Shown: one piece after another, positions 2,019-56,522 of the stretch
Layout: each line of letters begins with the position of its first letter
Position numbering within the stretch: position 1 is the first letter of the stretch
Assembly (NCBI RefSeq): GCF_932294415.1
Contig: NC_065542.1
Location: forward strand, 54,494,406-54,558,405
DNA from: Quercus robur
Taxonomy: Eukaryota; Streptophyta; Magnoliopsida; Fagales; Fagaceae
Length of the DNA stretch: 64,000 bases
Direction of reading: 5' to 3'
The notes under the pieces: model-generated
The model's database searches: none
What the model saw: the letters and a program-made list of their open reading frames with translations, nothing else
What the model was told of the DNA's origin: nothing
Program-made: the position numbers and the translations under genes

Positions 2019-2053
<35 letters not shown>

Positions 2054-2960: not shown

Positions 2961-4440
2961 ATTAGAATTTTGCCCCCCTGGCCCTAACATAGATCTGCCA
3001 ACGCAGACGCCATTGCGGGAAATTCTAGAAGTGGGACTGAGTTTACTGAAAGGCTCCCAGCAAGCCAACATGCGAGGCCAGCTGTGATAAACCCAACTGG
3101 TTGTCCTGATATGATGGGGCTAATGAACTAAGAATATAGGCAGTTTTAGTTTGTAGCATGTCACAAAGAAGGGCTGTAACGCTATGGTGTGGAGGATGGT
3201 ATATTAGTTCAACAATCAATAGCCTAATGTTATATTTACACATGTAACCTTTTCAATTACAACTTTGCTTATTTCTTTCCTCAATACTATCAATCATCAA
3301 TTAATAAAGAAGCCATGTAGTGCCTTACTGTTTGCTTGAACTCTGAGTATTATCATGCTGTTATGAGACAAAGCCCACACTTCTGCACTACCAAGCTTAG
3401 GCAACAACTTGCACCTTTCAGCTTCAATGTAACAGCCACATCCATTCACCTAGATGGAACACATGATATCAATTTCTAAGTGACAGACAAATAAGACAAT
3501 GAAAAGTTTCTAATTCCAAACTGTCATCAAGAAATACCTTAGGCTCTATTTTTCTTAATACAACAAACTTAAAAATAAATCAAACAAAAAAGTTGGGTCC
3601 CTTTCCCTTCCCCCTGTTTCTTAATACATTATTCTTATTCATCAAACCAAAAAGTTGCATTAGTTTAACTATTGGTTTAAGTGCATCTTTACTTCACATA
3701 TGTATTCAAATATAACAGCATAATGAATCAAGGTCTATTGTATTCAACAAGAAAACTTTGCAAATAATTTCATCGCCTGAATCTACCTATTTCTATAAAA
3801 ACTAATTAGAAGAAGCAAAAGGAAAAATCTCTTGAATCTACCTTTGAAATGATTGATGAAGTGAGGAAAAAAATAACACACACATGGTTGGCTTGAGAGA
3901 AGGCAACCTCTGGTGAAAAACAGCCCTAATTTTCTTCTTTCCTTTTGAATACCAAGAGAGCAACAAGAGCATCTACTTTACCCTACAAAATTAATAATCA
4001 TGAGTGTGCTATCTGTTGCACATATCTTCTTTGATCCAGACAATGCCACAGTTTCTCCTTACCAATAAACTACAAAGTCCAACAACTTCATCGTATCCAG
4101 TACGGGGACACTAGCAGAAATAAGAATCACAAATTACTGAACTCAAATGAAAGCATATATGCCAATGAATTTTAAAACGAAAAATGAAATATAAAGCTAC
4201 AAAAAAAAAAATATGTAAAAGGGAGAAAGATATCAATGACTTACAAAAAATTTAGCTGTACAGATTCATCAAAGCCACCACTTTCACTGGGATTTCTCTT
4301 CCTCTCAATCAATGTTACATTGTCCTTGTGTGATTAAATTTCCAATCCAATTTCCCAAACGTGGAATGAATCTTTCAATTAGATTAGAGGTACCTTCTCC
4401 ATTAGTTCCATTCTCATCCCTATCATACTCATCATGGCTT
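2960..4440. repeat. TNL 3'-flank block, copy A
   Basis: Non-coding sequence that recurs in the window. 3240-3420 matches 7800-7990 and, more loosely, 62270-62430. 3970-4030 matches 7276-7340 and 63840-63900. 4230-4440 matches 9320-9540 and 63930-64000. The order of matching pieces is the same in the three places and each leads into the 3' end of a minus-strand TNL, so this is the duplicated downstream flank of an ancestral TNL gene. No coding exon is seen. A short (ac)n tract lies near 2937-2951. Confidence 0.7.
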
Positions 4441-4665
4441 TCACTTAGTTTTGGTATCTTTTGCTAAATCTTCCAAATCATTTTCATAAGGAGTGATGCT
4501 ATAGCTGCTGCTGCTGCACCCATGCATTGTTTGGTTTAGATCTTCAATGTCTTGCTCGTATGCCCAACAGGCCCCGCATTTTGTAACCTCTAATCCTGGA
4601 CCTTCGGTTTCAAATCCAATCTCAATTTGACCGAATCCATTAGCATCCATGAACAAATGATTCAT
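4441..4665 (-). pseudogene. TNL C-JID tail fragment
   Basis: The minus strand encodes the end of a TNL post-LRR (C-JID) domain: GQIEIGF, then VTKCGACWAYEQDIEDLNQ, a Ser-rich stretch and ITPYENDLEDL before the stop. It is closely similar to the tail of TNL1 (9541-9774), which has GQIEIGF, VTKCGARLIFEQEIEDLNQ and ITPYEDDLEDS. Homology ends upstream near 4655-4720 and no LRR or NB-ARC exon follows. It is the remnant 3' end of a TNL whose body has been lost. In intact receptors this domain takes part in effector recognition. Confidence 0.8.
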
Positions 4666-4994
4666 GGTTCACCCTTTTCCAATGTTAGTAATACTAGTGG
4701 CTAGAGGAAGAGGATTCCCTGCCTCAAGTATGGTTTTTCACTCCTCTTGCTTATACAAAATGGACATGAGCATGATCTAAAGTAGAGGCAGTGTCAACAG
4801 CAATCTTCACAGCCCCGCCCCAAACCAAAAACAATTGACAGCTTAAGAGCCAATATATTAGAATAACATTGTAAATATTTTCTAATTTACAACATGGACA
4901 TCAATAATGACAGCAAGTAGAACCATTCGATGTCCTGTAAAATGGAGCACCAAAGCAGAAAACACAAAGATGCTTGGGAAATTAATTGTAGTTA

Positions 4995-5034
<40 letters not shown>

Positions 5035-5035
<1 letters not shown>

Positions 5036-5625
5036 ACAAAGTTTCTTTGGCTTTTTCATTGATGCAGGAGCATCAAAAGGTCCGATTTCAATTACAGCAG
5101 TAGCAACAATAATCCAGCAGGAAGGTTAGTTCAACAGTACATTCAGTCAGCCAGCAGCCTAGCCTAATGAAACTTGTTATTTGCAGCAGCCAGCTGGTGA
5201 TCACTTAAGGAGATTAACTGAGTGTCTGAGTCTTTGCCAATTCATATGGAAGCAGTTGGAAGGAGCTTGGAGGGCTGGAAGTCTCAGCTGTAACAGTCAA
5301 GTTAGAGGCAAGTTGTTTAGACTTGTAACCAAACAGTAGGCTAAAGGTTGCTAGAGAAAAGTAAACATTGAGAACTTTTTGTAATACGTTAGTCAGGATG
5401 TTAAGTGGTTATTTAGTCTAGTTCAACAGTAGATAAGATCATATCAGGTTGATTTTTTGGCTGCACTCTGATACAGCCTTTATAAATAGGCATTTAACCT
5501 TCTGCTGTAATCAGGTAGTTTTGAAGTTAATGAAATATGTAGCCTTGAGTGCTATTTGAGAGAACTAGGTGTTTTTTGCATAGGTGTTATCCACCTATAA
5601 GCTTCTCTAATCAACTTGCATCCTA
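5035..5625 (+). mobile_element. Possible LTR-derived fragment
   Basis: This stretch is missing from the paralogous block at 61.5 kb. It contains a TATA-like tataaatag near 5480, followed by sequence resembling the 3' half of an LTR R/U5 region. I could not define clean ends or a target duplication, so the family (possibly Copia) is uncertain. No internal coding domains are present, so it is a fossil fragment. Confidence 0.3.
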
Positions 5626-5892
5626 ATTAATCCACCAAGCCAAAATAACCACCCTACTTATCATTCATTTACTGAAGTATGTTCAATAAACCATGAAAGA
5701 AACAAAACATTAAGAATATTAAGAACAATAGTTTTACTAGCATCAAGGCTAGTATAAAGCTCCTCATTATATATACTTTTTTACTTACTAGAAAAAATCA
5801 TTGTTTAAGTTTAAGAAAATTAAGGAATATTAAGGGCTAATTTAAATCTTAAGGATATATTTTCTAGTGCAGGTGGACATATAGAACAGGTT

Positions 5893-6123
5893 AGGGACGG
5901 ACCTAAGTGGGGCATAAACCCCCCCTGGGTCCAATTATTTATTTATATATATATATATATAGTTATTATATATTTTATTACTGTAGTTGATCCCCTTCCA
6001 AAACTTTAGGCCTCTCTTCTCACGAATCAACCTAGCTAGTCTAACCCAGATAGCAACTATTCAACCCAAAAAGTTAACAAAAACAATAAAAACATTCACA
6101 ATGGTGATTGTATTTTAGCAAAA

Positions 6124-6164
<41 letters not shown>

Positions 6165-6604
6165 ACGACCAAAGAACCAATAAAACATGTGTTATAGGGG
6201 AAGCTAAAGCTAAATTTTTTGCAACTATAGTAAACTGGTATAAATACCAGTTGACTGTAGCAAGTTGTTAAAAATAAAATACAATATTTTATTAAAATTA
6301 TATCTCTTCCTTCTATTAAAAAACTCAAATTCTCTCTCTTCCTTTATTATTTTAATGAGTTGTTTATATTATTTTAAATGAAGTGATAAAAAAATAGAAC
6401 TCCTAGCCAACCTAGTATTAAAAAAATAAAACATTATTTTGTTTTGTTTTTGTCTTTTTTGGTAGATGATTGCATCTTAATGTATTTAGAAATAACTATT
6501 TTGTGTATTTATAATTTTTTAATACTATATGGATACTTATTTGGATCTTTTTTTTCCTTTATACTTCGGCCCCCATTAGCTTAAAATCCTGACTCTGTCC
6601 TTGG
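5893..6604. mobile_element. Non-autonomous hAT element
   Basis: The left end begins AGGGACGGACC. The right end, reverse complemented, begins CCAAGGACAGAGTCAGG. Both resemble the CAGGGACGGA-type hAT terminus also seen at the start of the window. The flanks are near-identical 8-bp direct repeats, aacaggtt at 5885-5892 and aataggtt at 6605-6612, as expected for hAT. The paralogous site near 61600 lacks the element. It is AT-rich with no transposase. Confidence 0.65.
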
Positions 6605-7489
6605 AATAGGTTGACATACAGAGAACAGTATAAATCATGCACATGAGATCAATCAATCCAAATTGGGATATTGTCCCATAAAATGTCTGTGGACAGTATC
6701 ACACAGATCATATACGCAAGCAGTATGCTTCTCTCACACAGATCATATACAAAAATGGTATGCTTCTCTCATTTGTTACTTCCTATGACCACTCAAAATA
6801 AAGTGAAGTGCTAGTAATCATGTATTCTAAATTCATTTTCTTTTATGTTTGTGCAAATCTAATTCAACTATAACCTACAAATAACAATGATCTCAAACCT
6901 CTTTAAGTTTTCAATGTTTATCCAAAAGAATAGAAAATATATAAATATAGCCAATATTAATCTATCTAGTTTGGTTACCCATTTTGCAATAAAATTTCCC
7001 ATTTTATTAAACTTCTTATCTTTGGTAACCAACATCCATATCCTACCAATGATTAATCGATAAGGCAAAGTGCTGGAGTCTATGATCAAAAATCAAATTG
7101 TGATGTCCATAACAGAAGAGCACACATATAAGATCTAATCAAAACAGAAAATAACAGATCATGTAGGACAGTTTTCAACTTTGAAAATTTTGATTGACAA
7201 GAAAATTGAATTGAGCAAACGCAAATTTCATTATTTATATATATATAGGCATTGCGAGAGTAACAAGAGTGCAGATTTTACTCACCAACATAATTGAACA
7301 AAAATGATTAGCACACAATTTGTTGCACTCTTCTTGTCTGCTAGTAGTTTGACAATTTTTCCTCCCCAACAAAGTCCAGTAACTTCATCAAAGCTACCAA
7401 GTTCACTGTGATTCCTCTTCATCACAAATAGAACTACCTTCTGTGCATAAATTCCCAAGCCAATTTTCAATTAGATTAGGGTGCTCTAT

Positions 7490-8245
7490 ACACTTTTTGG
7501 AAAAGCCACAACAACCAGTTTTTTGTTTGTAGCATGTCACAGAGAAAAGCTGTAAAATCTTACCATTCTACTAAAAAAAAAATAAAAATAAAAAATAAAA
7601 ACTCTTTTAAATAAGTCTATTGACAGAAGACTAGGAGGTGGATGACATACCATTAACTTAAGAATAGCTCAAAAGTCACAAAGGAAATAGTGAAAGTAGA
7701 GGAAAAATTATTCTTGTTTTCCCTTTTTCCCTAAGCATGGGATCAACAGATATCTTCAGTCTTTCAGGTTATAATTCTCGATTACAACTTCTAGTTCTAC
7801 TTGGTCTTATTACACCATTACAGTTTTGCTTATTTCTTTCCCTAATATGAATTATAAAATAATAAATGAGACCCCATTTGTAAGATAAAGAAGCCATGCA
7901 ACGCCTTACTGTTTGCTAGAACTCTGCATATCATCATGTTGTTATGACTTATGAGACAAAGCCCACACTTCTTTACTGCAAAGCTTGGGCAAATGCTGGC
8001 AACTGAAAGCTATATTGATTTAACCAATCTGAAAGTGATGCACACCATATATACGATATATAGGACACCCACATCCATTCACCTAGATGGAACAGCATGA
8101 CATCAGTTCCTAGTGACAGACAAGTAAGACGATGAAAAGTTTATAATTCCAAATTGTCAACAAAAAATACCTTAGGCTCTATATTTCTTAATACAGCAAA
8201 CATGAAAATAAAACAAGGGTTCTTTAGATGGATAGAAATTTTTGG
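7490..8245. repeat. TNL 3'-flank block, copy B, proximal part
   Basis: Non-coding sequence matching 3120-3560 (tracts around tttgcttatttctttcc, the cttactgtttgct segment and the agacaaagcccacactt segment) and 61990-62430 plus 63520-63545. It lies between the distal flank and the inverted-repeat element carrying the CYP28 exon. No coding exon is seen. Confidence 0.6.
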
Positions 8246-39869: not shown

Positions 39870-40310
39870 TGTTACGTTTCAAAACAATGTTGAAAACTAG
39901 CATCTCGAGTGTCTAAAACTCGATTTCCAAGATAAAACTCGAGTTTTTAAGTCTCGATTTGTAAGAGGATCAGGTATAAACTGAGAAAAAATTGACGTAT
40001 AAACGCCGCTATAGGGCTTTAAAACGTCACTATAGGGATTAAAAACGCTACTATAGAGCTCCCTAAACCACTAAAAAAAATTTTACAGGAAAACGCCGCT
40101 ATAGGGCTTTAAAACATCACTGTAAGGCTTAAAACGCCACTATAGGTGAAATTTTTTTGCATGAAACTCGAGTCTTAAAGACTCGAGATCTATGTGGCAT
40201 TTTCACACTTGCAAAGCGAGTCTTTTGGACTCAAGTTTTAATATGGATCTCGAGTTTCTAAAACTCGAGATGCTACTTTCCTTTATTATTTCAAACGTTG
40301 CTTAACTAAC
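39870..40310. mobile_element. Inverted-repeat MITE-like element rich in CTCGAG
   Basis: The ends are roughly inverted copies: gttgaaaactagcatctcga on the left and tcgagatgctactttc on the right, with flanking cgtttcaaaa and ttcaaacgtt. The interior has several near-repeats of cgccgctatagggctttaaa. It carries no coding sequence. The aactcgag motifs recall the arms of the Mutator-like element at 43913, but I cannot show they are related. Confidence 0.45.
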
Positions 40311-40532
40311 TATATACAACCCCTTTACACAGTTATTCTGCACATTACCTCCATATCTTTATTTTTTTTACTTTTGAAACTTTATTAAGATTTTATAATC
40401 TACTACTTTTTAAAACTTTAGCTTTAAATTGTAGTTTTTGAAATTGTAGAGTTTAATTTGTTACATCCCTAAACTCTAGGATTTAAATTGTAATTTTTCC
40501 TAAATACAGTACTTTTTAGGAGGGGGTTATAA

Positions 40533-40880
40533 TCTCTATATATTAAAAAGACTCAGAAAGTTATAACTTTAAAAAATGTCAAAAATACCCCTAATCTAAT
40601 TAGATAATTTTTATTCTTAAAAAATAAAAAATATAGTTAAATTTGTAATTCAAAAAAATTAAAAAAGAAAAGTAAAAAGAACTACTTGACAAACTTTTTC
40701 CTAAAAATTAGCATACTCTCTATAGATATGTATGTTTGATACATTTTTTTTTTCCCTAAAAACTAGCACACATTAAACTCAACAGATTACTTCATTTTAA
40801 ATCCTAAATTTTAGTTTTATAACAATCCTTTCCTGTGTAACCTCACTAACAAATAGATAAATTCAAATTGAAATTAAACT

Positions 40881-40916
<36 letters not shown>

Positions 40917-40952
40917 CTCATCACATATGTGGAGCGCAAGTGATGAAGCTAG
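40533..40952 (+). mobile_element. Short Helitron-like element
   Basis: Starts TCTCTATATATTAAAAAG after an A and ends gatgaagCTAG before a T, with a stem (tcatcac and gtgatga, 40919-40946) shortly before the end. 420 bases, non-coding, with a long A run at about 40882-40912. The spacing between stem and CTAG is shorter than usual, so the call is moderate. Confidence 0.45.
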
Positions 40953-42107
40953 TAAGTAAATAAAATCTTAAGAGAGGAGTAGGAAATCTAACCTATTAAT
41001 TTTTAACTATATATATACACACATTTTAAAGGGGGAAATAAAGTCCATTTTGACTCCAAGTTCATTTGTTCGAGAAATAAAGTCCTCATGGTGGAGAACT
41101 AATGTGGCCAATCATTCTACTAATAAAAAACTTCCATCTATTTAGAATTGTTGAGTCAAAAAAAAAATTAAAACAAAAACTGATTACTGACTCAAGAATT
41201 TTAAATAAGGAGTATTTTAGTAGAATGGTGAACAAGTGACGTGGTCCACCATGAGGACCGAATAATTTTTCTATTTGTTCAAAGAATGGTAAAAATAAGT
41301 GAAAACATTTGACAAATCACTAATGAATTGAATGAATGACAAATGCACCATCAAACACTTAGTCACAGAATGTATTTGTTTTGAAATTTGTTAGATGGGT
41401 CATGGGTGCAGCAAGAAATTTCCAAGGCAGTAAAACTATAATTAAAAAGTTAAAAGACTTGAGGCAAATGACCTATCCATATTCATCTAATTGAGTATTG
41501 CTTGGAATATGATGATTGGTTTTTGTTTTTACAAAACAATAAGTTAATGGGCACAACTTTTTTCATACATACTAATATGATCTATTGTACGATTGGTGCA
41601 AAATAATGATAGTGTAACTTTATAAGTGGTAATGGTAACAAATAAAAAAAAAAAAACTTTATAAGTGGTAAGTACATATAAAAGTGATTTTACAATCACA
41701 ATTTGCTATTTACAAAATATATTAAACCTTGAGGTCTTTTCCTTCTTAATATAAAAAGTATATCATTGCTTCAAACATTTTTTTTTTCTTTTGTTCCTTA
41801 AGCAGTCAAGTCAACCGACCAGCCTTCATGGCTTGATTCCTGTTAGAATGCGTTCAGCGTGAGCTTTCAACACTACAAAGTTTTGTGACATAATATCATC
41901 GCTGATTAAAATGAATCTCCCATTATCCTTACTAAAAAAGAAATCAAATAACAGATAGTACCAATGCCAGTAAACCGTTCTAATGAACTAAAAGCCTTTT
42001 CTTACCAACTTTCTCCTTCATGCAATCAACGTGGTGAAGGTTTGGAAATATCTATTCAAGGTAGATTATACAATACTTTCACGTGTTCTTATGGAAATAT
42101 CTATTTT
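40953..42107. other. Intergenic DNA next to the TNL2 breakpoint
   Basis: No gene seen. 42040-42107 resembles 2320-2420, DNA that elsewhere lies beyond the 3' end of a TNL, so TNL2 exon 4 appears to be joined to 3'-flank sequence by a deletion. The rest is AT-rich. Confidence 0.45.
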
Positions 42108-42232
42108 GAGACTCACTTAGGTCAATGAGTTTTAACTCATCTAAAATCTGTTATAAAATAATATTTAGTTAGATAAACTTAAGCCTTAATGAAAACGAAG
42201 AAAATACACATTTGCAAAAGTGAAAAACTTAC

Positions 42233-42552
42233 CAAAATCCCTTTCCATAATTGTTTAATGCCACTGCAGACCATTCTCAATTCAACAAGTTTGTTTGGTT
42301 GAAAACTAGTTGGGATGTAATTTAAAGGATATCCATGCCAATTTATAACATGTAACTCATTAGAAAGATAGTTGAGACCATGCAGAAGTTGCACATTACA
42401 TCTAATGAGGTCTTCTGGAGGTTGCACGTCTGAGAATGCTTTCCCAATTTTGAGAAATCTAAATTTTTCATCTTTGAGAATGCTTCAGCATTCAATTGTT
42501 CCTCTTTATGAACAGGTATTATTAGGGCTATGCCTTCAACTACCTCTATTCC
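42233..42552 (-). pseudogene. TNL2 exon 3: start of LRR region
   Basis: Begins GIEVVEGIALIIP after ttattag, reads EAFSKMKNL, then shifts by one base near 42470 to RFLKIGKAFSDVQPPEDL and LSNELHVINWHGYPLNYIP, and ends IKQLWKGIL before GTAAGT. Matches TNL1 exon 3, except that two short repeated segments of TNL1 (around PEDFINGIVKLP) are not present. Confidence 0.8.
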
Positions 42553-42653
42553 CTAATAACAAAAAGTAATGAAATTAGAATAATTGGCAATTTCTTAGAA
42601 AAACTGTAAGAATATATGTATTTCTAAGTTCAAGTTTAGACTAGTCAACTTAC

Positions 42654-43768
42654 ACTATTATTATTCAATACATGATGAACATCCTCACAGAACCACAACC
42701 TACTACGCCCACTAGGCTCTTTAGGGGATTCACGAAGAACAATTTCTTGACCCATTTTTTGTAGCAAATCATGCATCCACAAATTTCTATTGTCATCAAC
42801 AGTTATGAGAGATTTTTCCATAAGAACACCAATATTGTAGTCCAGATGGTAACCAAAACCTTTTAGTATATCTCTAATGCAATCATTGCTCTCTCCTTTG
42901 AAAATACATGCAATATCTAAAAATAATTTTTGCTGCATATCCGTTAGCCCATTATAACTTATTTGAAGTATATCCAAAATGTTTTCATTAGGTTCTACTT
43001 TTAGTTTTTGTAAGACATTTTCCCATTCATTAATCTTCTTATCAAACAAAGAAGAACCTAAAACTTTAAGAGCTAAAGGAAGGCCTTTGGCGTAACGCAT
43101 AAATTTCCTAGACAAATCCATAAAGTTTTCTTCAGGACGAGGTTTCTTAAAAGCTCTCCAACTAAAAAGTTGCAAGGCATCATCTTTATTCAACCCCTTA
43201 ATTGTGTATATATATATATATATATATATCATTCACACCGCATCTTCTCAATAAATGACTATCTCTACTAGTTACAATGATTCTACTCCCTAGACCAAAC
43301 CAATCATGCCTCCCAGCTAATGCTTTTAGATGTTCATCTCCATCCACATCATCGAGGACAATCAAAACCTTTTTATTATGTAGTATAGTCCCTATAACAT
43401 TGATTCCCTCATAAAAATTCCATATATCTATTTCGCTTTCCACGAGGATCGTAGATAGAAGCTGCTTTTGTAAAAAAACTAGACCTTGATTTTTAGTTTT
43501 TTCTTTAACATTTGCAATAAAGCTGCTAGCTTCAAAATTACCTGAAATTCTTATATAAATTTCTTTTGCAAGAGTCGTTTTGCCCATTCCACCCATCCCG
43601 CAAATCCCAACAAAGCGAACATCACCCAACCCTTCACCTAAATATAAATCCAACACTTCCTTCACACAGGAGTCTATTCCAACAAGTTCCTCGCAAACAC
43701 TCGGAAATTCATGATTCAACTCACTAAATATCTTTATGAGGATTTCATGGATAACTATTGAGTCATGC
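42654..43768 (-). pseudogene. TNL2 exon 2: NB-ARC domain, frame broken
   Basis: Opens HDSIVIHEILIKIFSEL. It has GMGGMGKTTLAKEI, VLIVLDDVDGDEHLKAL and GSRIIVTSRDSHLL. Then the (TA)n tract replaces the short segment where TNL1 has DDVYKIKG. In another frame it continues TIKGLNKDDALQLFSW, GLPLALKVLGSSL, KLFLDIACIF and WMHDLLQKMGQEIV. All motifs survive, so the repeat expansion is probably the main damage in this exon. Confidence 0.85.
43205..43229. repeat. (TA)n tract inside the TNL2 NB-ARC exon
   Basis: About 25 bases of alternating TA in coding sequence, where TNL1 has the codons for VYK. It produces a Tyr-Ile repeat and changes the frame. Confidence 0.85.
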
Positions 43769-43912
43769 CTATAAACAAGAGAGCAGAACAATAATTTTGT
43801 TGAGATAGAGTAAAGTCACATTTAGAGACAAAACATTCAACATAAGTACAATCTTAGCTACGTTCACTAGTAAAAGGAATCTTTTAAAAGTGTAAAATAA
43901 GACACCTTGGAC

Positions 43913-45608
43913 GGTGAAATGGCCAGATACCACCATTTTCATAAATTTGTAGCAAAAAAGCACTGTTTCGGAACTTATTAGGGAAATACCACTTTTATGG
44001 TACTCGAGTCTGGCAAAATCGAGTAGCATTTGGAACTCGACTTTAAGAAACTCGAGTTCCTAAAAGTTTTGCCACCGTGGCACTACTGAGGTGGAAATTG
44101 GGCGATTAAAAAAAAAATGTGGTACTCAAGCTTGGTATACTCGAGTACCATGCAACACAATACTCGAGTATACCAGGCTCGAGTACCTTTTATAAATAAA
44201 ATGTTGTTTATTTTATTTCTACAGTACTCAAGTACCATGTAACTTTTTTTTTTTCTTGGGATTATCGACAAATAAACATAAACATAAAATGCTGTTTATT
44301 TTATTTCTACAATACTTAAGCTCACTAAGCTCGAGTACCTTGTAACATTTTTTTGGGGGGGGGGGGGATTATCGATAGATAAACATAAACATAAAAACAA
44401 GTAGCTTTTTTATGTTTTTATCTATTTAAATAGAAGCATTGTAAAATATAGATATTTTAATTTCAAAATATGAATTTAATTTCTACATTAAGTAAAACTG
44501 TTCACTATTTTCTCATAAAAATTGTTCACTGTTTTCTGCATAAACTATTTCTAGCATTCTGCATAAAATTATTTTATGTTCAGCAATATTTAAAAAATTG
44601 TTCACTCTCTTTTCTGCGTAAATTATTTTCTGTTCACTATTTAAAAAATTGTTCACTGTTTTCTCATAAACCACCTAGTGAAATCGTGTTTTCTAAATTT
44701 AAACGCCAAATCTGAATGCTTTTTCATGTTTGAATTTCATAATAATCGAATCTATTTTTCTGCATTGATAAAATCTATTTCTACATTAATAAAATTTGCA
44801 CTCTGCACATCATGTTTACTGTATATTCGAATCTGCTTACTGCATTCATAAAATCTGTTTTTTGCATTAAGTAAAACTGTTCACTGTTTTCTCATAAAAA
44901 TTGTTCACTGTTTTCTGCATAAACTATTTCTAGCATTCTGCATAAAATTATTTTATGTTCAGCATTATTTAAAAAATTGTTCACTCTCTTTTCTGCGTAA
45001 ATTATTTTCTGTTCACTATTTAAAAAATTGTTCGCTGTTTTCTCATAAAACACCTAGTGAAATCGTGTTTTCTAAATTTAAAAGCTAAATCTGAATGCTT
45101 TTTCATGTTTAAATTTCACAATGAACGAATTTGTTTTTCTGCATTGATAAAATCTATTTCTACATTAATAAAATTTGCTCTCTGCACATCATGTTTACTG
45201 TATATTCGAATCTGCTTACTGCATTCATAAAATCTGTTTTTTGCATTAAGTAAAACTATTTACTGTTTTCTCATAAAAATTGTTCACTATTTTCTACATA
45301 AACTATTTCTAGCATTCTGCATAAAATTATTTTCTGTTCAGCATTATTTAAAAAATTGTTCACTCTCTTTTCTACGTAAATTATTTTTTGTTCGCTGTTT
45401 TCTCATAAAACACCTAGTGAAATCGTGTTTTCTAAATTTAAAAGCCAAATCTGAATGCTTTTTCATGTTTAAATTTCACAATGAACGAATTTGTTTTTTT
45501 GCATTGATAAAATCTATTTCTACATTAATAAAATTTGCACTCTACACATCATGTTTACTGTATATTTGAATCTACTTACTGCATTCATAAAATCTGTTTT
45601 TTGCATTA
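43913..45608 (+). repeat. Left inverted arm with three tandem units
   Basis: The outer part is 43913-44489. Tandem units start at aagtaaaact at 44490, 44869 and 45248, a period of 379 bases. The third unit ends near 45608 and is slightly shorter. Within each unit ttgttcact recurs several times. Confidence 0.85.
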
Positions 45609-48244
45609 TAGACTTGACGGCTCGCTCTTGTGCCTTCCCCTTTAGATGCTTCCTAGCCTTTTGGATTACATGAAAACGGTCTAATCACCTTTGCATTTGA
45701 TTATTTTCTTATTCAAGACGAGCAAGTATGTTGGCAGATTCAACTCTAGGTAACTCGGTTGAGCATGCCTTAGGAACTCGTAACCCATGCCATCGACAAT
45801 ACACCTCTAACTTACACCTCTTCTCGTATAGGGTTGACCATGGTGGTTCTGCTACGGTGAACTCTATTGCGGAGATATCTATACTTAGTTTTGTAGGTTT
45901 GCCGACCATGATGTGCCCGACTCTTCCAAGACTCTCGTACGTGTATATTGGCATATTAAGGAAATCTCTCTTCTTTCCAACCCATTTCCCTCCATAGTGG
46001 TTTGTGTATGTCTGTAGTTATTGATCTGCTGGAACTTGTGATAATCCATTTGTTGAAGTAGATCCAAACTTGTTTCGCATTGTATGATTTGATGTTGATG
46101 TGTTGCGACTCATAGCTTAGTCAATCTACGAAGTTAGTGGGGTAGAAATAAGATCATTATTGTGGTGCATTTATAACCTCATTTCATGTTCCAAGCATTA
46201 TAATTTCAATTATTAGGGTTTGTCATGTCAATACAAGCTGGAAAAACACTACATGAATAGGATTTTAAATGTTCCCAATGTCACAGTGAGATTTGAAGAT
46301 GTGGGCGGTAGTTGTAGTGTTCTTGAACAGGGCATCATATTTAATTGACACAGTACTATGTCCCTGGCATCAGGGTATGATTATTCATATATTTAAGTAT
46401 TCTCATGAATGTGGATGATATGACTGGACGGTGTGTGAAATCGTGCCTAGCTGGTGAGCAGCACGTGTGAAACAGTGGCGTTTGTTGGCGCATGTGGTTC
46501 GTATGACTACAGTTGGTGCTACAGCAGCGGCTGGTGATGTGTCTTCAAAAAACTACTCATGCCACAGTTGGTGCTACATCATGTTACTCTATATTCAAAT
46601 CTACTTACTGCATTCATAAAATTTGTTTTCTGCATTAATTAAAATTGTTCATTGTTTTCTCATAAAAATTGTTCACTGTTTTCTACTTAAATTATCTTTA
46701 GCATTTGCATAAAATTATTTTCTATTCAGCATTACTTGAAAAATTGTTCACTGTTTTTTCTGCATAAATTATTCACTGTTCATTAGGTGTTTTATGATTC
46801 GGATGCTCTAATACCAATGACTACCCAGGAGAGAGCACAGTAGTAATATGGAAGCATAAACAATGATAAAGTTGATACTAAAGAAGAAAATAGCAAAATA
46901 GATATATTCAAAATAAGGTTAAAATGAAGTATGGAATATGAAAATAGAAACTAGTAAAATCTTACTTGAATAAAAACTTCAGTCTTTGATAAACTTGAAA
47001 ACAAACTGCTATCTTTGATACAAGCTTGAAAATAAAACTGTCTGAAGAGAAATGTTACAAGATTACAAGATGGGGAGAGAGTACAAAATTCTTTCCGAGG
47101 GAGAGGGAAGGCTATTACAAAAGGCTTTCCAAAACTTGGAACTTAAAATTATGTAATAATAACTCATTTAGTTATAATTTCTCAAAAATATATATAAAGA
47201 AAATTCAGGATTAAAGCCATGCAATGCATGGAACTTTCACAAGTATCTTTTATAAATTTCAACATTATAAAACATTTCATCCACACTTTAAGGATATCAT
47301 TTGATTCATTTCTTTCAATTTAAATTTTGAAAGAATCCTTCTATATATATAATCTTTCTATTACATTCCTTCCAAAATGGAAAAATGATAGATAGTTTGA
47401 TAGCCATCCAAACGTATCACAAAACAAATATCATTTTTTTTTAATGAAAAACAAAATTCTTTTAAACAAAAAATCTTTTAAATATCATAGGACATTTCAC
47501 TTTTGTTATGTTTTTAGTTGATACCACTTCTATTTCTTGCAAAGTGACATTGTCTCCAAGTTCTTGTTCCACGTGTAATAGACAGTTTATTTAATTCAGT
47601 GTTAACTATAGCTATGTATCTTGTTAGACTTTGTTTCATAAAATTGCTAAAGAAACATGACTTTTTCTATACCTCTTGTTTCAAATTTAATTGACTTTCC
47701 TCTACTAATGGTTACGTTCTAATGTCAACTCGTACTTTTGATTGGAAGATTATTGCATAAATTAAGCCTATGTGAGTGGACTCTGATTGGACCAGATATT
47801 GTACTGTTCCCCATTCAGCAATCAGCTAGAAAACCTTTAGGTTTCTAAAGCATGGAAGCAATAGGCAGTAGAAATCTAAAAGAGACATTTAGCACTTGTG
47901 TTGCATTAAATTTTGTAGAAATACAATGTAGCTTAGTATGAAAATAATACACATGAAAAATACTTTAAAAAAATTATGAGAATGGCATAATAATGTAATT
48001 AAAAATGTGCAATTTGTAGTGTTTGTACAATGCAGTTGTGCAATACTAATGATTAGGTACCCAGGCCATGAGTATGAAAGAAGTGGCTGCACAATCTGCA
48101 AGCTGGCCAGCTTCAAAAGACTACAATGGGAGGTGTATGCATCCCTATAAAAGTAGATTTGTTACTTGCAAAGCTTGAAGGTAGGCAAATAGACAGACAC
48201 AATCATTTAGCTACTTGATGCTCTAGAAAGGTAGACTATATGGC
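45609..48244. other. Interior of the Mutator-like element
   Basis: 45640-46130 is less AT-rich, and its minus strand has an open stretch at 45709-45954 (RREISLICQYT in one frame; KLSIDISAIEFTVAEPPWS and EKRCKLEVYCRWHGLRVP in the other) that I cannot assign. It may be captured host DNA or a transposase-region relic. 46575-46790 is a fourth, partial copy of the arm unit. 46800-48240 is AT-rich with a small hairpin ccatgcaatgcatgg at 47217-47231. No other coding signal. Confidence 0.4.
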
Positions 48245-49854
48245 TAAAAGTAGATTTTATCAATGCAGAAAAACAAATTTGATTATAGTGAAATTTAAAC
48301 ATGAAAAAGCATTCAGATTTGGCTTTTAAATTTAGAAAACACGATTTCACTAGGTGTTTTATGAGAAAACAGTGAACAATTTTTTAAATAGTGAACAAAA
48401 AATAATTTATGCAGAAAAGAGAGTGAACATTTTTTTAATTAATGCTGAACAGAAAATAATTTCATGCAAAATCGTAGAAATAGTTTATGTGTGAACAATT
48501 TTTATGAGAAAACAATGAACAGTTTTAATTAATACAGAAAACAGATTTTATGAATGCAGTAAGCAGATTCGAATAGTAAACATGATGTGCAGAGAGCAAA
48601 TTTTATTAATGTAGAAACAGATTTTATCAATACAGAAAAATAGATTCGATTTTTGTGAAATTCAAACATGAAAAAGCATTCAGATTTGGCGTTTAAATTT
48701 AGAAAACACGATTTCACTAGGTGTTTTATGAGAAAATAGGGAACAATTTTTTAAATAGTGAACAAAAAATAATTTTCGCAGAAAAGAGAGTGAACAATTT
48801 TTTAAATAATGCTAAACATAAAATAATTTTATGCAGAATGTTAGAAATAGTTTATGCAGAAAAAAGTGAACAATTTTTATGAGAAAACAGTGAACTGTTT
48901 TACTTAATGCAAAAAATAGATTTTATGAATGCAGTAAGCAGATTCGAATATACAGTAAACATGATGTGCAGAGTGCAAATTTTATTAATGTAGAAACAGA
49001 TTTTATCAATGCAGAAAAATAGATTCGATTATTGTGAAATTCAACATGAAAAAGCATTTAGATTTGGCGTTTAAATTTAGAAAACATGATTTCACTAGGT
49101 GTTTTATGAGAAAACAGTGAACAATTTTTTAAATAGTGAATAGAAAATAATTTACGTAGAAAAGAGAGTGAACAATTTTTTAAATAATGTTGAACAGAAA
49201 ATATTTTTATGCAGAATGCTAGAAATAGTTTATGCAGAAAATAGTGAACAATTTTTATGAGAAAACAGTGAAAAGTTTTACTTAATGTAGAAATTAAATT
49301 AATATTTTGAAATTAAAATCTCTATATTTTACAATGCTTCTATTTGAATAAATAAGAACATAAACAAGCTACTTATTTTTATTTTTATGTTTATTTGTTG
49401 ATAATCCAAAAAAAAAAAATTTACAAGGTACTCGAGCTTAGTGAGCTCGAGTACTGTAGAAATAAAATAAACAGCATTTTATGTTTATGTTTATTTGTCG
49501 ATAATCCAAAAAAAAAAAAAAGTTACAAGGTACTCAAGCTTGGTGAGCTCGAGTACTGTAGAAATAAAATAAACAGCATTTTATTTATAAAAGGTACTCG
49601 AGCCTGGTATACTCGAGTATTGTGTTGCATGGTACTTGAGTATACCAAGCTCGAGTACCACATTATTTTTTTTAATCGCCTAATTTCCACCTCAACAATG
49701 CCACGGTGGCAAAACTTCTAGGAACTCGAGTTCCAAATGGTACTCGATTTTGCCAAACTCGAGTACCATAAAAGTGGTATTTTCCTAATAAGTTCCAAAA
49801 CAGTGCTTTTTTGCTACAAATTTCTGAAAATGGTGGTATTTGGCCATTTTCACC
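48245..49854 (-). repeat. Right inverted arm with three tandem units
   Basis: Inverted copy of the left arm. Unit borders lie near 48530, 48907 and 49285, then the outer part with ctcgagtac motifs runs to 49854. Units in this arm differ from the left ones by scattered changes and short deletions. Confidence 0.8.
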
Positions 49855-50127
49855 CACCTTGGACATTCTAACTTGCTTATCATAACAATTCTTAAGGAAA
49901 CTAAAACTATAAAAAGGAGGAAGGCTTTATAGATTCGACAAGTCATTTGTAGAATGTGGATTAACCAATTTTGTGTCTATGTTTGTCCATATTGGGTGAT
50001 TTAGTAAGTGACTACCATGTGGTTCTTCAACCAAAGTTCAATTTGAGCTTATAATTTCCTAATTTTGTAATATGGATGGAACAAAGATATTAACGATGGA
50101 TAGAATTATTCTAAAAGAAATTCTTAC

Positions 50128-50615
50128 TTTTCCTTTAAATCCCATCCAGCGAGATCACCAATTTTTGTCAAAGCAGTTTTCCACATTTGCACATTCCCTA
50201 TATTATCTTGGAGGTGCACTTCATATTTTACAAAGGCATTTGCAAAAGTCCCCCTCTGATGATGCACGTCATTAGGATCTACATAGTGGAAAACTGGCAA
50301 AACTACCAACCCCATCTTCTCCATGCACTCAACAATCTTTGCTAGTTCAATCAAGCACCACTTCGAAAAGGCATAGTCTTTTGAGAGAATAACGATAGCA
50401 ACTCTTGATTCTTCTATTGCTTTCAAGAGTTCTGAAGTATTGATTGCTCCCTGCTTGAGTTTTTCATCAACCCTAAAAGTGGATATGCATTTTTGTTTCA
50501 AACCAAAATATAGATCGTTTGTAAAATAAGTGCTCTCACCTTTGAAACTAAGAAACACATCGTGTGCCCACCTAGGGGTAAAAGAAGAAGATGGTAATGA
50601 TGAAGTACAAGCCAT
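50128..50615 (-). pseudogene. TNL2 exon 1: TIR domain
   Basis: Open from MACTSSLPSSSFTPRWAHD to LAGWDLKEK with no stop. Compared with TNL1, the DTRKKFTDHL segment is shortened to STYFTNDLY, a loss of two to three residues after SFKGE. The catalytic glutamate region SKWCLIELAKI and FHYVDPNDVH are kept. The donor is GTAAGA at 50127, normal. If unspliced, the next codon after the donor bases is a stop (TAA), giving a TIR-only product of about 163 residues. Confidence 0.75.
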
Positions 50616-51175
50616 GAAATAAATGGATGAGCTTGAACCGTGAGCGCTTTTAGTTTACAGATACAGAAAATTGTAGCTATGACTGAAGAAAGCTTGTTGA
50701 AATAACACTGGGCAGTGGAGTGGACTGTAACTAAGTGAGACAAATTAAGTTTCCGGCATTCATGAATCATGAGTCAACAATTCATTTTCTATGTGTAAGT
50801 GGCCGTCCTCATCTTCCAGTTATCTTCCTGGCCCAACAACTACGTAAATTTAAAAGTAAATTGTTAAAATGTATTATTTGGTTTATAATGGGGGACAGGC
50901 ATATAGAATTTTTGTGCAATATCGCATGTGGTGGGTTTGTGAGAGTGAGAAGATGCATGGTATTGGTGGGGTTCATGTACTACACTTTCTCTTCTTCTTC
51001 TTCTTCTACTTCCTTCTTTTTTTTTTTTTTTTTTTTTTTTGTTTGTGTGTGTGTGTGGCTAAATGAACGACTCTTTATTGAAAGAGTGGATATCTTTTTG
51101 TCCTAACTAGGTATAGGATACTTTAATTTACATCAAAAAAAAAAAGAAAAAAGAAAAAAAAAGGATACTTTAATA
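50550..51175. repeat. TNL2 TIR start and upstream region, copy A
   Basis: The first codons of the TNL2 TIR exon plus about 550 bases upstream. It recurs as 52608-52890 (partial) and 52890-53522. Shared landmarks are gctgggcagtggagtgga-like sequence, catgaatcatgagtcaa and gagaagatgcatggtattgg. This is probably the promoter and 5' UTR region of the TNL2 lineage. A T run lies at about 51016-51039. Confidence 0.7.
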
Positions 51176-51177
51176 AG

Positions 51178-51618
51178 TTTGGGTTTGGGTCATAAACGGG
51201 TCGACCCGAAAGTGACACGATAAGAAATGTGTCATAAGCGGGTCAACTTGCATAACCCGCAATAGACACATTTGACACACCAATTTATTTATGTCAACCC
51301 GAAATGACCCACTTAACACAAGTTTAACTCGTATAACAAATAAATATTTATTTTATTTTAGATTTGTCAAATACCTTTTATATCCAACATACATTTTAAA
51401 TTTAAAAAGAAAAGTGAGTAATTACATAAACTTACAAGGGATATAATTGGAAATTGAAACTTTACAAATCCTAGATCTCTAAACCTTACAAACCCTAAAT
51501 CTCTAAACCTTCTTATAAATATCTAATTTTTTTTTTTTTAATTTCAGCTGTACTACTCACTCTACTATATGATAGACTCACGCCCAATTCTCAAACTCAA
51601 AGTCTCAAACCGGTTATT

Positions 51619-51662
<44 letters not shown>

Positions 51663-52608
51663 ATGTGTTTAGTGAGTTTTAGAATTAAAGAAAACCGTTT
51701 TCTTGGTGTTTCAAAATTCTGCAGTAATTTTTTTTGCATAATGTTTTTGTTCTATAAACTTTGAACCCATGCGCCGTTATTAATATATGAGATATATTAA
51801 TTGTTGATTAAGGCCACGGTTGTAGCTTTTATCTTGTGCCATGTGTTTTCTTTTTTGGTGTTTGTATTAGTGTTGGACACCGTCTGCATATCTTTCAAGT
51901 AGATCTGATGGGTATTGCTTTTAAAACTATTAAGTCATGATCATATTTTTTAACTACTAATACTTATATATATTTTTTTGGCATAGAACTTGCATAAATG
52001 AAATTGGATGAGCTTGTGGAAGATGTTATAAATTTGGACATCAACAAAGAATCTATGGATGATAATCGTAGTCATAGTCAGGATTAGTCTACTGTTTGCT
52101 CCAATTCTTTCAATATCGATACTTAGCATTTGGCGAGTTCCAAGGATATTATATTTTTGTTGAACTATGTTATTTCATTTTTGTTAAACTATGTTATTTT
52201 GAATTTTGGGTTGAAATGTATGCACTTCTTTTAGAGTGTAAAGAACTTATTTCTAGATGAATGTTATATTTTTGTTGAACTATATTATTTTGAATGTGGG
52301 TTGAAGACTTGAAGTGTATGCACTGCTTTTGAGGTGTAAAAAAAATTATTTATAGATGAATGTTATATTTAATATTATGTAGGTTGAAATGGGTTGTGTT
52401 ACATTCGTGTCAACCCAACACGACTCGTTTATTAAGCATGTCAAATGGGTTGGGTCAGGTCGACCCACCTTATTAATAGGTCGGGTTAGGGTTGAAGGAT
52501 CATGACACGATTATTAAATGGGCCGAGTTAGGGTTGAGCCATTTAGTCGAATACCCTACCTCGACACAACACGAACCCAACACGCTAACCCGAATTGACA
52601 CCCCTACT
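51178..52608. mobile_element. hAT-like element with ggtcgacccg-type repeats
   Basis: It separates copy A from copy B of the TNL upstream repeat. The right end, reverse complemented, begins TAGGGGTGTCAATTCGGG, and both ends are dense in gggtcgacccg and cgggttagcg-like motifs, a pattern I associate with non-autonomous plant hAT elements. The left terminus is not well preserved and no 8-bp duplication could be confirmed. A short reading near 51998-52086 (MKLDELVEDVINLDINKE) may be a relic of a transposase N terminus. A (TC)n tract lies at 51618-51661. Confidence 0.5.
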
Positions 52609-52677
52609 AAGAAACACATTGTGTGCCCACCACCTAGGGTTAGAAGAAGAAGATGGTAATGATGAAGTAAAAGCCAT
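52608..52677 (-). pseudogene. TIR exon stub, copy B
   Basis: From ATG at 52677 the minus strand reads MAFTSSLPSSSSNPRWWAH and NVFLS, then the hAT-like element interrupts it. It resembles the TNL2 start MACTSSLPSSSFTPRWAHD. Confidence 0.7.
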
Positions 52678-52889
52678 GAGAGAAATGATTGAGCTTGAAC
52701 AGTGAACACGTTTAGTTAACAGTCACAGAAACTTGTAGGTGTGACTGAAGAAAGCTTGTTGAAATAACGCTGGGCAGTGGAGTGGACTGTAGGTAAGTGA
52801 GACAAATTAAGGTTCCGGCATTCATGAATCATGAGTCAATTTATTTTCTATGTGCAAGTGATCCTCCTCATCTTCCAGGTATCTTCCTG

Positions 52890-52964
52890 GCTACTGAGAA
52901 ACACATTGTGTGCCCACCACCTAGGGTTAGAAGAAGAAGATGGTAATGACGAAGTAAAAGCCAT
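52890..52964 (-). pseudogene. TIR exon stub, copy C
   Basis: From ATG at 52964 the minus strand reads MAFTSSLPSSSSNPRWWAH and NVFLS, then joins the upstream sequence of copy B at about 52893. It is almost identical to copy B, so this is a recent tandem duplication of about 285 bases. Confidence 0.7.
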
Positions 52965-53509
52965 GAGAGAAATGGTTGAGCTTGAACAGTGAGCGCGTTT
53001 AGTTAACAGTCACAGAAACTTGTAGGTGTGACTGAAGAAAGCTTGTTGAAATAACGCTGGGCAGTGGAGTGGAGTGTAGGTAAGTGAGACAAATTAAGGT
53101 TCCGACATTCATGAATCATGAGTCAATTTATTTTCTATGTGCAAGTGATCCTCCTCATCTTCCAAGTATCTTCTTGGCCCAACAAGTACGTAAATTTAAA
53201 AGTAAATTGTTAAACTATATTATTTGGTTTCTCATTCTCAAAAAAAAAAAAAAAAAAAAAAAATTGGTTTTTAATGGGGGACAGGCATATAGAATTTCTA
53301 TGCATTGCATGTGGGGGGTTTGTGAGAGTGAGAAGATGCATGGTATTGGTGGGGTTCGTGTATGACTCTCTTTCTTTCTTTCTTTTTTCTTTTTTTTTCT
53401 TTTTTTCTTTTTTTTTTTCCGGCTAAATGAACGATTCCTTATTGAAAGAGTGGATGTCTTTTTGTCCTAACTAGGTATAGGATACTTTAATTTACATCAA
53501 AAAAAAAAA

Positions 53510-54345
53510 AAAAGATACTTTAATAAGTTAATATTATCAATGATCATTCACATTATTAAAATCATATAATATTTATTGTTTAAATCTAATTCAACAGCCA
53601 AGAATCTTGTAGTTCGATTAGTTGGCACTTCATTGTGTTTTCAATAGTCATATTCTTAATTCAAATCCCCTCTCTCCAAACTATAAAATTATCAAAAAAT
53701 CTCATCCCATAATACTAGATACTTTTGTCAAAGCAACTCTCTATTAGTACACATCCTCTATGTTTTTTTTTTAAACACTCTTCATGTAGTGGCAACTCAA
53801 GACCTAGCGTAAGGACCCTGTTTATTAAAAAAAAATGCTCTACTTACTTTATAAAAAAAGCACTACTCCATTATTAAAAAAAGCCAAAAATTGTAGAGTA
53901 ATGCTATAGAGATACAACTTTTATTACATAGTGTTTACAATTTTTTTTTATTTTTTTTTTAGAGTATTTACCTATGGCGTCTGCCCCTTATGATAACTCT
54001 TTATCATCAGACCAAAACACCAACCAATATTTGGTGTAGGCAGGAATTGAATCCTATATCTCTTATTTAACCATAAGAGACTTTACTAGTTGAGCTAACT
54101 GGAACTCACTAATATTTACAAATTGATGTGTCACAATCACAATTAAAAAAAAAAAAATCAAATGGTTATTTTTTAGGTGGTTGAAGTCTACCAATCACAT
54201 GAATTGTCACATCAATTTGTATGCTTTACATAATAAATTTTTTTATGTATCTTTAGCATGTTCTATAAATATATGATTATAAGTGGTTAAAAAATGATTG
54301 TGCACTATTTTTTTCATACCTCCAAAAAATCTCTAAAATATCAGA
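53510..54345. repeat. Tandem duplicated intergenic block F1
   Basis: Matches 54945-55600 with scattered changes: ggatactttaataa, the caagaatcttgtagtt segment, the tattaatacacatcctctatg segment and gattgtgcactattttt. Non-coding. Confidence 0.65.
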
Positions 54346-54349
54346 CTAA

Positions 54350-54550
54350 GTGTGCGTTTGGGTAAAGATTAAAAATTAAAATTATTTCATTATTTAGCTT
54401 ATTTTTGCTATTATTCATGAGTCCCACTGCACTTTTTGGCACTATTCATGGGCCCCACTGTACTATTTCAACTAACTTTTCTCCTTATCTGCAGTACTTT
54501 CAGTAATAATTTTTCAGTTTCAACAAAATAAGCAGTATCCAAATCCACCC
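54350..54550. mobile_element. MITE with GTGTGCGTTTGGGTA ends
   Basis: Left end gtgtgcgtttgggta and right end tatccaaatccaccc are inverted copies with a few changes, flanked by taa on both sides (54347-54349 and 54551-54553). 201 bases, non-coding, and it interrupts the duplicated block F. A 3-bp taa duplication would fit PIF/Harbinger, but three bases can match by chance. Confidence 0.5.
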
Positions 54551-54553
54551 TAA

Positions 54554-54897
54554 TAGAAACTTAACCCAATTGAAAACCATAATTTATATGGAAAAAAAAA
54601 ACATTTTGAAATTTCAATTATTGTAAACTAATATTTTACATGGTAGATTACTAGATTGTTAATGTTAGCAACCTAATCTCTCACATAGCCATATACCAAA
54701 CAATCTCCAAGAAAGCCACTATAAACTTACCAAACAATCCCCTCTTTCTGCGTTGTAGAAAGGTGACCTTTTTTTTTTTCTTGGGAGAAACAAGAGGAGT
54801 GACTTTTAGATAAACAAATTAAGCTTGTTTGACGGGTGTGAAAAGCACAAATGCTTTGAAAGAGTGAATGTCTTTTTGTCCTAACTAGGTATCTCGT

Positions 54898-54928
<31 letters not shown>

Positions 54929-55746
54929 GGGGACAATAGGATACTTTAATAATGATCATTCACATTATTCCAATAAAATAGTACTTATTATTTATAGCGT
55001 AAATCTAATTCAACGACCAAGAATCTTGTAGTTTAATCTTTTGGTACTTGATAGTGTTTCTAATAGTGACTTCCACAATTCAAATCCCCATTCCCTTAAT
55101 TAAAACACAGAGGATGTGTATTAATAGAGATCTTTTGATTCAAAAGATCTCATCCCATAATTCCAGCAACTTTTTCCGAAGAAACTCTCTATTAATACAC
55201 ATCCTCTATGTTTTTTTTCTTTTAAAAACTCTTCAATTCATGCAGTGGCAGCTCAAGGCCTAACTTAACCTAAGGCCCCTGTTATTTTAAAAAATAAAAA
55301 TAAAAAATAATGTTCAACTCACGTTATAAAAAAGCATCACTCCATTATAAAAAGACCAAAAATTAAAGTAATGCTATGTTATGTATATACAACTTTTATT
55401 ACATAAAGTTTACAAACTGATGTGTCACCAATAAAAAAATTAAATTAAATTTCATTTATTAAGCCATTAAAGTTGTATGCTTTACACAATAAATTTTTAA
55501 ATATCTTTAGCATGTTCCATAAATACATGACTATAAATGGTTAAAAAAGGATTGTGCACTATTTTTCTTACCTCTAAAAAGATCTCTAAATTATTTGGAA
55601 AGAAATATTTTGAGACTTTAATTTTTGTAAATCAATATTTTACATGGTTGATTGTTAACGTTAGCAACCTAGTCTCCCACATGGCCATATACTAAATAAT
55701 CTCTATCTCTTTTATAACACCAAAATAAAAATTTATAAAGATTAAA

Positions 55747-55777
<31 letters not shown>

Positions 55778-56522
55778 TTCAATTAGGAATGAAGCTAAAA
55801 ATCCAATAAACAAATTAGAGGAGGAGAAGTTGGGGAGGTTGTTTTAGTGATCAAGGAATAAGCCACTATAAACTTACTAAGCTCTGCTATATTGTATCAT
55901 GTACCAAGTAATTCCCCTTTCCATGTTGTGAGAAAGGTGGTCAAGATGAGTGACTTTTAGGTGAACAAATTAAGCTTGTTTGACGCATAGTTATGAACAG
56001 CATAAATGGTGATGTGGAAGGCATTTTATGCTTAAGTAGGTGAAAAGAGGATGACAAATGCTAACATTGGAGAAGCTACTATAAATATTGTATCACTATC
56101 ATGTACCAAGGTTTGGATTAGCGGTATATGCAAGTAACTCCCCTCTTTCCGTGTTGTTGAATCCACTGGACTAGCTCGGCAAACCGTGATCAATTCAATT
56201 GTATTCATTTAGTAAGAGTCTTAGTTTTTCTTGAGTGTGTTTTAAGCTCCATTCTAGACCAAAGATTCAAGACCAAGAAAAACAGAAGTTTATGTGATAT
56301 CGAAACCACTTGACACCAACTCAATCGATCGAGAATCACTTATCTCAACCTATTGATGCAAAAGTCTTGACTTATCAAAAATTTTGCATAACAGAATCCA
56401 GGTATGTTTCAATCAGCCTAGGGTTTAGTGGTTTTCAAGCAAATGTATAAAAGTGACCCTAGGGCACATATTTCAAGACTTTGTAAAACTGTGTGGTGTA
56501 CACAATCATAGGAGATATTTGG
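54554..56522. repeat. Block F2 and neighbouring intergenic DNA
   Basis: 54945-55600 is the second copy of block F. 54720-54900 and 55880-56010 share the segment around attaagcttgtttgacg, a further internal duplication. 56190-56522 has less AT-rich sequence with tcaatcgatcgagaatcac, possibly part of an older retroelement into which the solo LTR inserted. No coding exon seen. Confidence 0.4.

Follow-up and report, generated by a model that had tools for sequence, protein, structure and literature searches.

The analysed window, a 64,000-nucleotide stretch of the Quercus robur genome (NC_065542.1, positions 54,494,406 to 54,558,405), includes the paralogous TNL genes TNL1 and TNL2. TNL2 lies on the minus strand and comprises a TIR-domain exon (50128..50654; coordinate 50654 marks the limit of the open frame and is not a transcript start established by mapping) and an NB-ARC/winged-helix region (42645..43768), separated by a predicted first intron of 6,359 nt (43769..50127) that contains a large foldback element. 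The limits of this intron were set from the end of the TIR exon at 50128 and the start of the NB-ARC exon at 43768, together with consensus splice sites (donor GTAAG, acceptor TTTATAG). Pfam domains identified in TNL2 comprise TIR, NB-ARC, a Roq1-type winged helix and LRR_3, the frames flanking the element matching TIR (PF01582, E 3.5e-39) and NB-ARC (PF00931, E 9.2e-16). An earlier sequence-only reading of this DNA had placed the element between these two exons, a position borne out by the Pfam frames and the splice sites. The NB-ARC frame is shifted by a 22-bp TA run (43207-43228), at a place where the corresponding stretch of TNL1 reads through, and TNL2 looks like a pseudogene in this assembly; the microsatellite could be an assembly or allelic matter. 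Beside TNL2, two adjacent tandem arrays of 20-21 bp (AAACGCCACTATAGGGCTTAA-like) occupy 40001-40144, and a head-to-tail 288-bp duplication with 96.9% identity, also related to 50547-50832, is found at 52604-53178.

The foldback element spans 5,942 bp (43913-49854), starting with GGTGAAATGG at 43913 and ending with CCATTTTCACC at 49854, and is flanked on both sides by a perfect 10-bp target-site duplication, CACCTTGGAC (43903..43912 on the left and 49855..49864 on the right). BLAST and alignment of the arms delimit a left inverted arm on the plus strand (43913..45519) and a right inverted arm on the minus strand (48247..49854). From outside to inside, each arm consists of a TIR of ~195 bp (left, 43913..44107, plus strand; right counterpart, 49660..49854, minus strand; family TIR sequence GGTGAAAATGGCC), a CTCGAG-palindrome block with approximate limits (44108..44479, plus strand; 49288..49659, minus strand, the latter with a 102-bp tandem repeat) and an array of ~379-bp units. 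The left array (44480..45608, plus strand) holds three 379-bp units, with a tandem period of 379 and 3.0 copies detected at 44486-45608, and the right array (48252..49287, minus strand) holds 2.8 units with a period of 378 bp. One further partial unit, separate from both arrays, is located in the element's centre (46572..46785, plus strand). The architecture anticipated by the sequence-only reading, a ~5.9-kb element with inverted, unit-bearing arms and a 9-10 bp target duplication, thus holds with an exact size of 5.94 kb and a duplication of exactly 10 bp, and its count of three units per arm stands for the left arm and is slightly too high for the right. Under very loose matching, without a control, the 379-bp unit can be read as a degenerate run of 22-25-bp pieces.

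The two arms are 90.3% identical over 1,644 columns by BLAST, gaps counted, and a global alignment gave 1,482 identities, 84 mismatches and 83 gap positions (94.6% ungapped). They share 27 perfect runs of at least 21 bp, summing to 959 bp, and their duplex energy is -2180 kcal/mol, whereas pairing the right arm with five other 1.6-kb pieces of the window gives -255 to -412; arm pairing is far above chance. A pattern search for CTCGAG hairpins that pair perfectly around a spacer of fixed length returned 0 matches. The six frames of the element centre gave no Pfam match over cut-off (OTT_1508_deam, E 0.022, falling below it), and nothing was detected by Rfam at the gathering threshold across 40000-56000.

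In a search for the empty site, the two flanks of the element were joined and the genome was searched with the joined sequence. A single full-length match was obtained, at C40:47148543-47148949 (97% over 407/407 bases), and the 307 of these 407 bases that were read show one copy of the target (CATCTTGGAC) and no element. This uninterrupted intron of a paralogous TNL is the empty site of the insertion. TNL1, the paralog within the window, was set aside for this role, having diverged too far to align across the mid-intron. The next-best matches to the joined flanks were halves, located around the window copy and around a copy at C38:54891170-54897091. The latter (positions 1970-7891 of locus L010) is the same insertion, with an identical target duplication, in a TNL paralog ~350 kb away. 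Window positions 42104-64000 are collinear with C38:54889406-54908791, with main pieces at 93.5-97.6% identity and, at that threshold, no match in the duplicate for window 56.5-59.2 kb; the two copies of the element are 96.3% identical ungapped (5,615 identities, 217 mismatches and 200 gap positions). The L010 paralog carries an 18-bp TA run at the corresponding NB-ARC position and is missing 44 bp from the NB-ARC exon, while its (TA)14 run lies inside the element, not in NB-ARC. The likely order of events is a split from the C40 intron, then the insertion, and then the segmental duplication that copied the element together with its host TNL.

Copies of the element were sought across the genome assembly (785.7 Mb, 42 contigs) with the terminal 23-mer and with a 39-base marker of the tandem unit. 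The 23-mer was found in 224 copies with up to 2 mismatches (114 forward, 110 reverse) and the unit marker in 505 copies with up to 3 mismatches (246 and 259), with controls of 0 and 0 in each case; no exact match to the termini turned up in GTDB genomes or viral contigs. We compared all or part of 27 foldback loci, window included, together with the transposase-bearing locus L041 described below. Seventeen of the elements are two-ended and represent 15 independent insertions, L010 being a duplicate of the window copy and L026 of L019. Exact 9-10-bp duplications adjoin the terminus in 8 of the 15 (window, L016, L018, L025, L027, L036, L038 and L039), that of L018 measuring 9 bp; the ends of L038 and L039 are shifted by up to 3 bases, and with ends allowed to slide by up to 4 bases the eight give 9-12 bp. 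Four more insertions have imperfect duplications (L033+34, 9/10; L035, 8/10; L028; and L019, with a shortened end), one (L037) sits in a TA microsatellite where the size of the duplication cannot be told, and none was found at L017 and L032+13. Target duplications of Mutator elements measure ~8-11 bp, and the window element displays both a duplication of this size and, in its 1.6-kb arms, the long terminal inverted repeats of the superfamily. The suggestion that the CTCGAG-rich outer part and the tandem units define a distinct family is supported by dispersed copies that share the termini and have duplications of 9-10 bp, and by the abundance of the unit marker. The sequence-only reading had named a lack of such copies elsewhere as a refutation, and their presence means that it stands against this check.

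The two-ended elements range from 1.34 to 12.3 kb in length and contain 0.2-4.8 unit equivalents in forward and 0-13.7 in reverse orientation, some copies being very unequal between arms. Tandem repeats varying in number between copies are a foldback feature, as are near-complete palindromes with little middle, represented here by L037 (1.34 kb) and L038 (2.0 kb). Termini also vary among copies (GGTG, GGCC and GGTC), and the family may therefore depend on more than one transposase. In a tree of the arms, the two arms of the same element are sister in 5 of 15 elements (L018, L019, L027, L033+34 and L039) and unresolved or separated in the other 10, so that homogenisation between arms is only suggested; the left arms of the window and L010 copies cluster together (99/96), as do their right arms (81/88), a pattern that speaks against homogenisation after their duplication. 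L019 (C35:43.68 Mb) and L026 (C35:44.12 Mb) share their immediate flanks, and this is apparently another insertion copied by duplication. A TIR pair at C3:16865144-16888679 spans 23.5 kb by its end positions; in the 11.3 kb of it that was read, the right arm has at least 9.6 379-bp units, making it a candidate seed of satellite DNA.

The relationship to Mutator transposases emerges from L041 (C2:16953309-16958009), a 4.7-kb TIR pair with the exact terminal 23-mer at both ends and a 9/10 duplication. Its ends are related to those of the foldback elements, including the left outer TIR of the window copy, over ~250 bp with CTCGAG motifs included, and it has no 379-bp units. L041 encodes a MULE transposase (PF10551, 59.9 bits with a cut-off of 27.6, E 3.4e-16) in a broken frame, with a SWIM match below cut-off in another frame. 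A genome search with the L041 transposase piece produced 151 matches. Among 32 L041-like loci (at least 69% identity), eight lie within 15 kb of a family TIR that faces inward, where 0.08 would be expected by density; the nearest TIR is 1.0-14.3 kb away and three of the eight loci sit between two such TIRs, while none of the 134 TIR marks used lies near the remaining 24. For another transposase clade (55-61% identity), the corresponding figure is 0 of 59 loci, these being about half of the listed matches below 69% identity. The Mutator-like character claimed from the sequence is supported both by the termini that L041 has in common with the family and by this co-location (8/32 versus 0/59), and the transposase-carrying relative that was to be looked for exists, with its transposase broken. 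No transposase read between family TIRs was intact, and none of the best 150 PF10551 matches, compared by eye, falls within a listed TIR pair. The L041 transposase piece had no tblastn match in the foldback loci examined, window included, and no Pfam match over cut-off was obtained in the six frames of the L017 and L022 stretches or in the three minus-strand frames of L020 (DUF4085, E 0.4, below cut-off). A transposase within the foldback centre was accordingly rejected for the window, L017, L022 and L020 frames scanned.

Longer copies of the family contain, in order between their arrays, a segment X of ~1.5 kb, a match to window 45620-47148, a segment Y of ~1.2 kb and a match to window 47144-48245. 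The window copy is without X, which adjoins the left array, and without Y, in place of which there is a deletion junction with a 5-bp TAAAA overlap (47144..47148); among the matches listed, this junction is joined only in the window and in its segmental duplicate L010. The minus-strand segment 45600..46285 is a relic, with stops and frameshift-type gaps, of a giant MULE's 205-aa ORF region (DNA identity of 90.3% to the giant-MULE piece L043). In 11 foldback copies, pN/pS for the internal ORF is ~0.57 (55 pairs, with stop codons left out and methylated-CpG decay uncorrected); stops occur in 7 of the 11 copies, and the 10 copies compared with the reference L040 all have frameshift-type gaps relative to it, some of which may be L040's own. 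Since the ratio omits both the stops and a correction for CpG decay, we interpret it as the decay of an ancestor that was under constraint, and a coding role for the internal ORF was rejected in view of the stops and frameshift-type gaps.

The 205-aa ORF occurs in the genome in many near-identical copies, many of them without stops. A MULE transposase is located 8.4-21.7 kb upstream on the same strand in 47 of 54 ORF loci, a subset of the ~150 listed; the other 7 have no transposase in the list, and within 30 kb none of the 54 has a transposase on the opposite strand. Because of this same-strand arrangement, the ORF is most likely part of a giant MULE. Adjoining the ORF is a region that includes part of a B3 domain (PF02362) and is 93-100% identical in the 40 places scored; the 850 bases read there hold part of this domain and stop short of the ends of the giant MULE. 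No match to the 205-aa ORF was found in L041. Because the transposase clade of the giant has no family TIR nearby and L041 lacks a match to this ORF, we read the foldback element as a probable mosaic, with L041-type ends and a centre partly acquired from the giant MULE. As regards a captured host gene, the mark of a Pack-MULE, the only segment recognised was the 205-aa ORF, which lies beside another MULE's transposase and has no Pfam match over cut-off.

We conclude with high confidence that the insert is a non-autonomous Mutator-superfamily foldback element that entered intron 1 of the TNL by cut-and-paste insertion, generating a 10-bp duplication. Directly observed are its boundaries, the duplication and the empty site, together with a family of many members sharing its termini and an element that combines related TIRs with a MULE transposase. 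Mobility would be provided in trans by a transposase of the L041 clade, a candidate for recognising the outer TIR, and the 379-bp units would grow and shrink within each arm through unequal exchange or slippage. Before the family dispersed, the centre would have acquired another MULE's 205-aa-ORF region, with the window copy probably having lost Y at the overlap junction and X beside the left array. The foldback could alternatively be a direct internal-deletion derivative of the giant MULE, not a mosaic, as the two have in common the 205-aa-ORF region, at ~90% DNA identity, and related subrepeats; this origin is conceivable yet on balance unlikely, given that family TIRs within 15 kb are absent from all 59 loci of the giant's transposase clade and that the TIR is common to L041, which has no ORF match. 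Palindromic duplications can also come from template switching, but a palindromic rearrangement without a transposon is refuted by the 10-bp duplication, the empty site and the many dispersed copies with the same ends, and we give it practically no credence.

A hairpin RNA arising from transcription of the intron is physically plausible, and the sequence-only reading had likened the element to Muk as a possible source of small RNAs. In a Muk-like silencer, transcripts of the TNL2 intron would fold on the arms and be cut by Dicer-like enzymes into siRNAs that silence related Mutator elements in trans. The long perfect runs between the arms and their duplex energy favour such a silencer, as do the 429 to 2,934 21-mers common to the window element and each of 26 other foldback loci, but the arms have no transposase match, just 16 21-mers are in common with L041, all in the terminal TIRs, every one of the 71 21-mers common with L043 lies outside the arms, and the TNL2 frame is broken by the TA-repeat shift in this assembly. 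An inverted duplication of transposase sequence, the Mu killer-type feature, was found neither by tblastn with the L041 transposase piece nor by Pfam analysis of the element centre. Membership in the Muk type was thus rejected, the 21-mer matches of the hairpin being to other foldback copies and not to a transposase gene, and silencing of this sort is improbable. A scheme in which the hairpin transcript of a mosaic foldback in an immune-gene intron primes siRNAs, with transitivity into the 205-aa-ORF relic and silencing of the giant MULE in trans, is highly improbable; if true, it would represent an intron-borne trap arming the plant against a rival transposon. The insert might instead act on its host gene, drawing DNA methylation or altering splicing of the TNL intron, with lower expression or an isoform switch as the outcome. 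Its location in the first intron, between the TIR and NB-ARC exons, and splice sites that look intact would fit such an effect, which is nevertheless doubtful: with the TNL2 frame broken by the TA run, and with a TA run at the same place and the loss of NB-ARC exon sequence in L010, there may be little function left to alter. The foldback element most likely serves no function for its host. Being intronic, it should be removed by splicing; any silencing it attracts would be incidental, and the consequence for the TNL itself is probably small.

No published description of this family was found in titles and abstract openings, within partial coverage of the literature, and we regard it as a new family of known design, a foldback Mutator of the ordinary kind with unusually elaborate arms and an apparently mixed origin. 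The closest known design is Tetris of Drosophila virilis (PMC4079207), a non-autonomous foldback element for which Mutator affiliation was suggested, with a variable number of ~220-bp tandem repeats in its TIRs, a variable non-coding middle and 8-10-bp duplications. The oak element resembles it in being non-autonomous, in the varying number of tandem repeats in its TIRs, in a variable middle without coding capacity and in its short duplications, and differs from Tetris in its plant host, 379-bp units and CTCGAG-palindrome block, in the transposase-bearing relative found for its family and in a centre that may derive partly from another MULE; the comparison concerns arrays inside elements, not satellite arrays outside them. 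Among plant elements, FARE of Arabidopsis has long palindromic repeats at both ends and is now classed with MULEs (Windsor and Waddell 2000, cited in PMC4486113), a likeness at the level of description. The mostly non-autonomous plant MULEs with tandem TIRs and TSDs reported by Ferguson and Jiang (PMC3310237) similarly have terminal sequence duplicated inside the MULE, but they repeat an additional TIR, whereas the oak 379-bp unit lies inside the outer TIR and forms arrays of up to ~13.7 units.

Composite TIRs with tandem motifs and transposase-bearing members are also described for the Mutator/Foldback element Tm1 of root-knot nematodes (PMC3169594), which generates 9-bp duplications and differs in its ~14-bp motif and animal host. 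The foldback MULEs of the MuTAnT family in Medicago (PMC4486113) likewise have a transposase-bearing relative; 90% of them are 200-300 bp long and they target TA repeats. One oak copy (L037) resides in a TA microsatellite, but duplications in the oak family are not restricted to TA. Maize Muk, a partial inverted duplication of mudrA with two copies of TIRA (PMC3440606), resembles the oak element in that a long inverted repeat of Mutator origin lies where a host transcript can reach it, and differs in that it duplicates the transposase gene, which the oak arms do not. The oak family offers a plant counterpart of Tetris. Its many dispersed copies, the one insertion shared by two TNL paralogs, the empty site and the relative with a transposase make it possible to trace, copy by copy, the growth of tandem arms, homogenisation between arms and the possible origin of satellite-like arrays. 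The family is also a lead to a giant MULE with two genes elsewhere in this genome, the transposase frame of which is open over ~881 aa in many copies, for example at C3:2460770-2474980 and C2:95090154-95104517.
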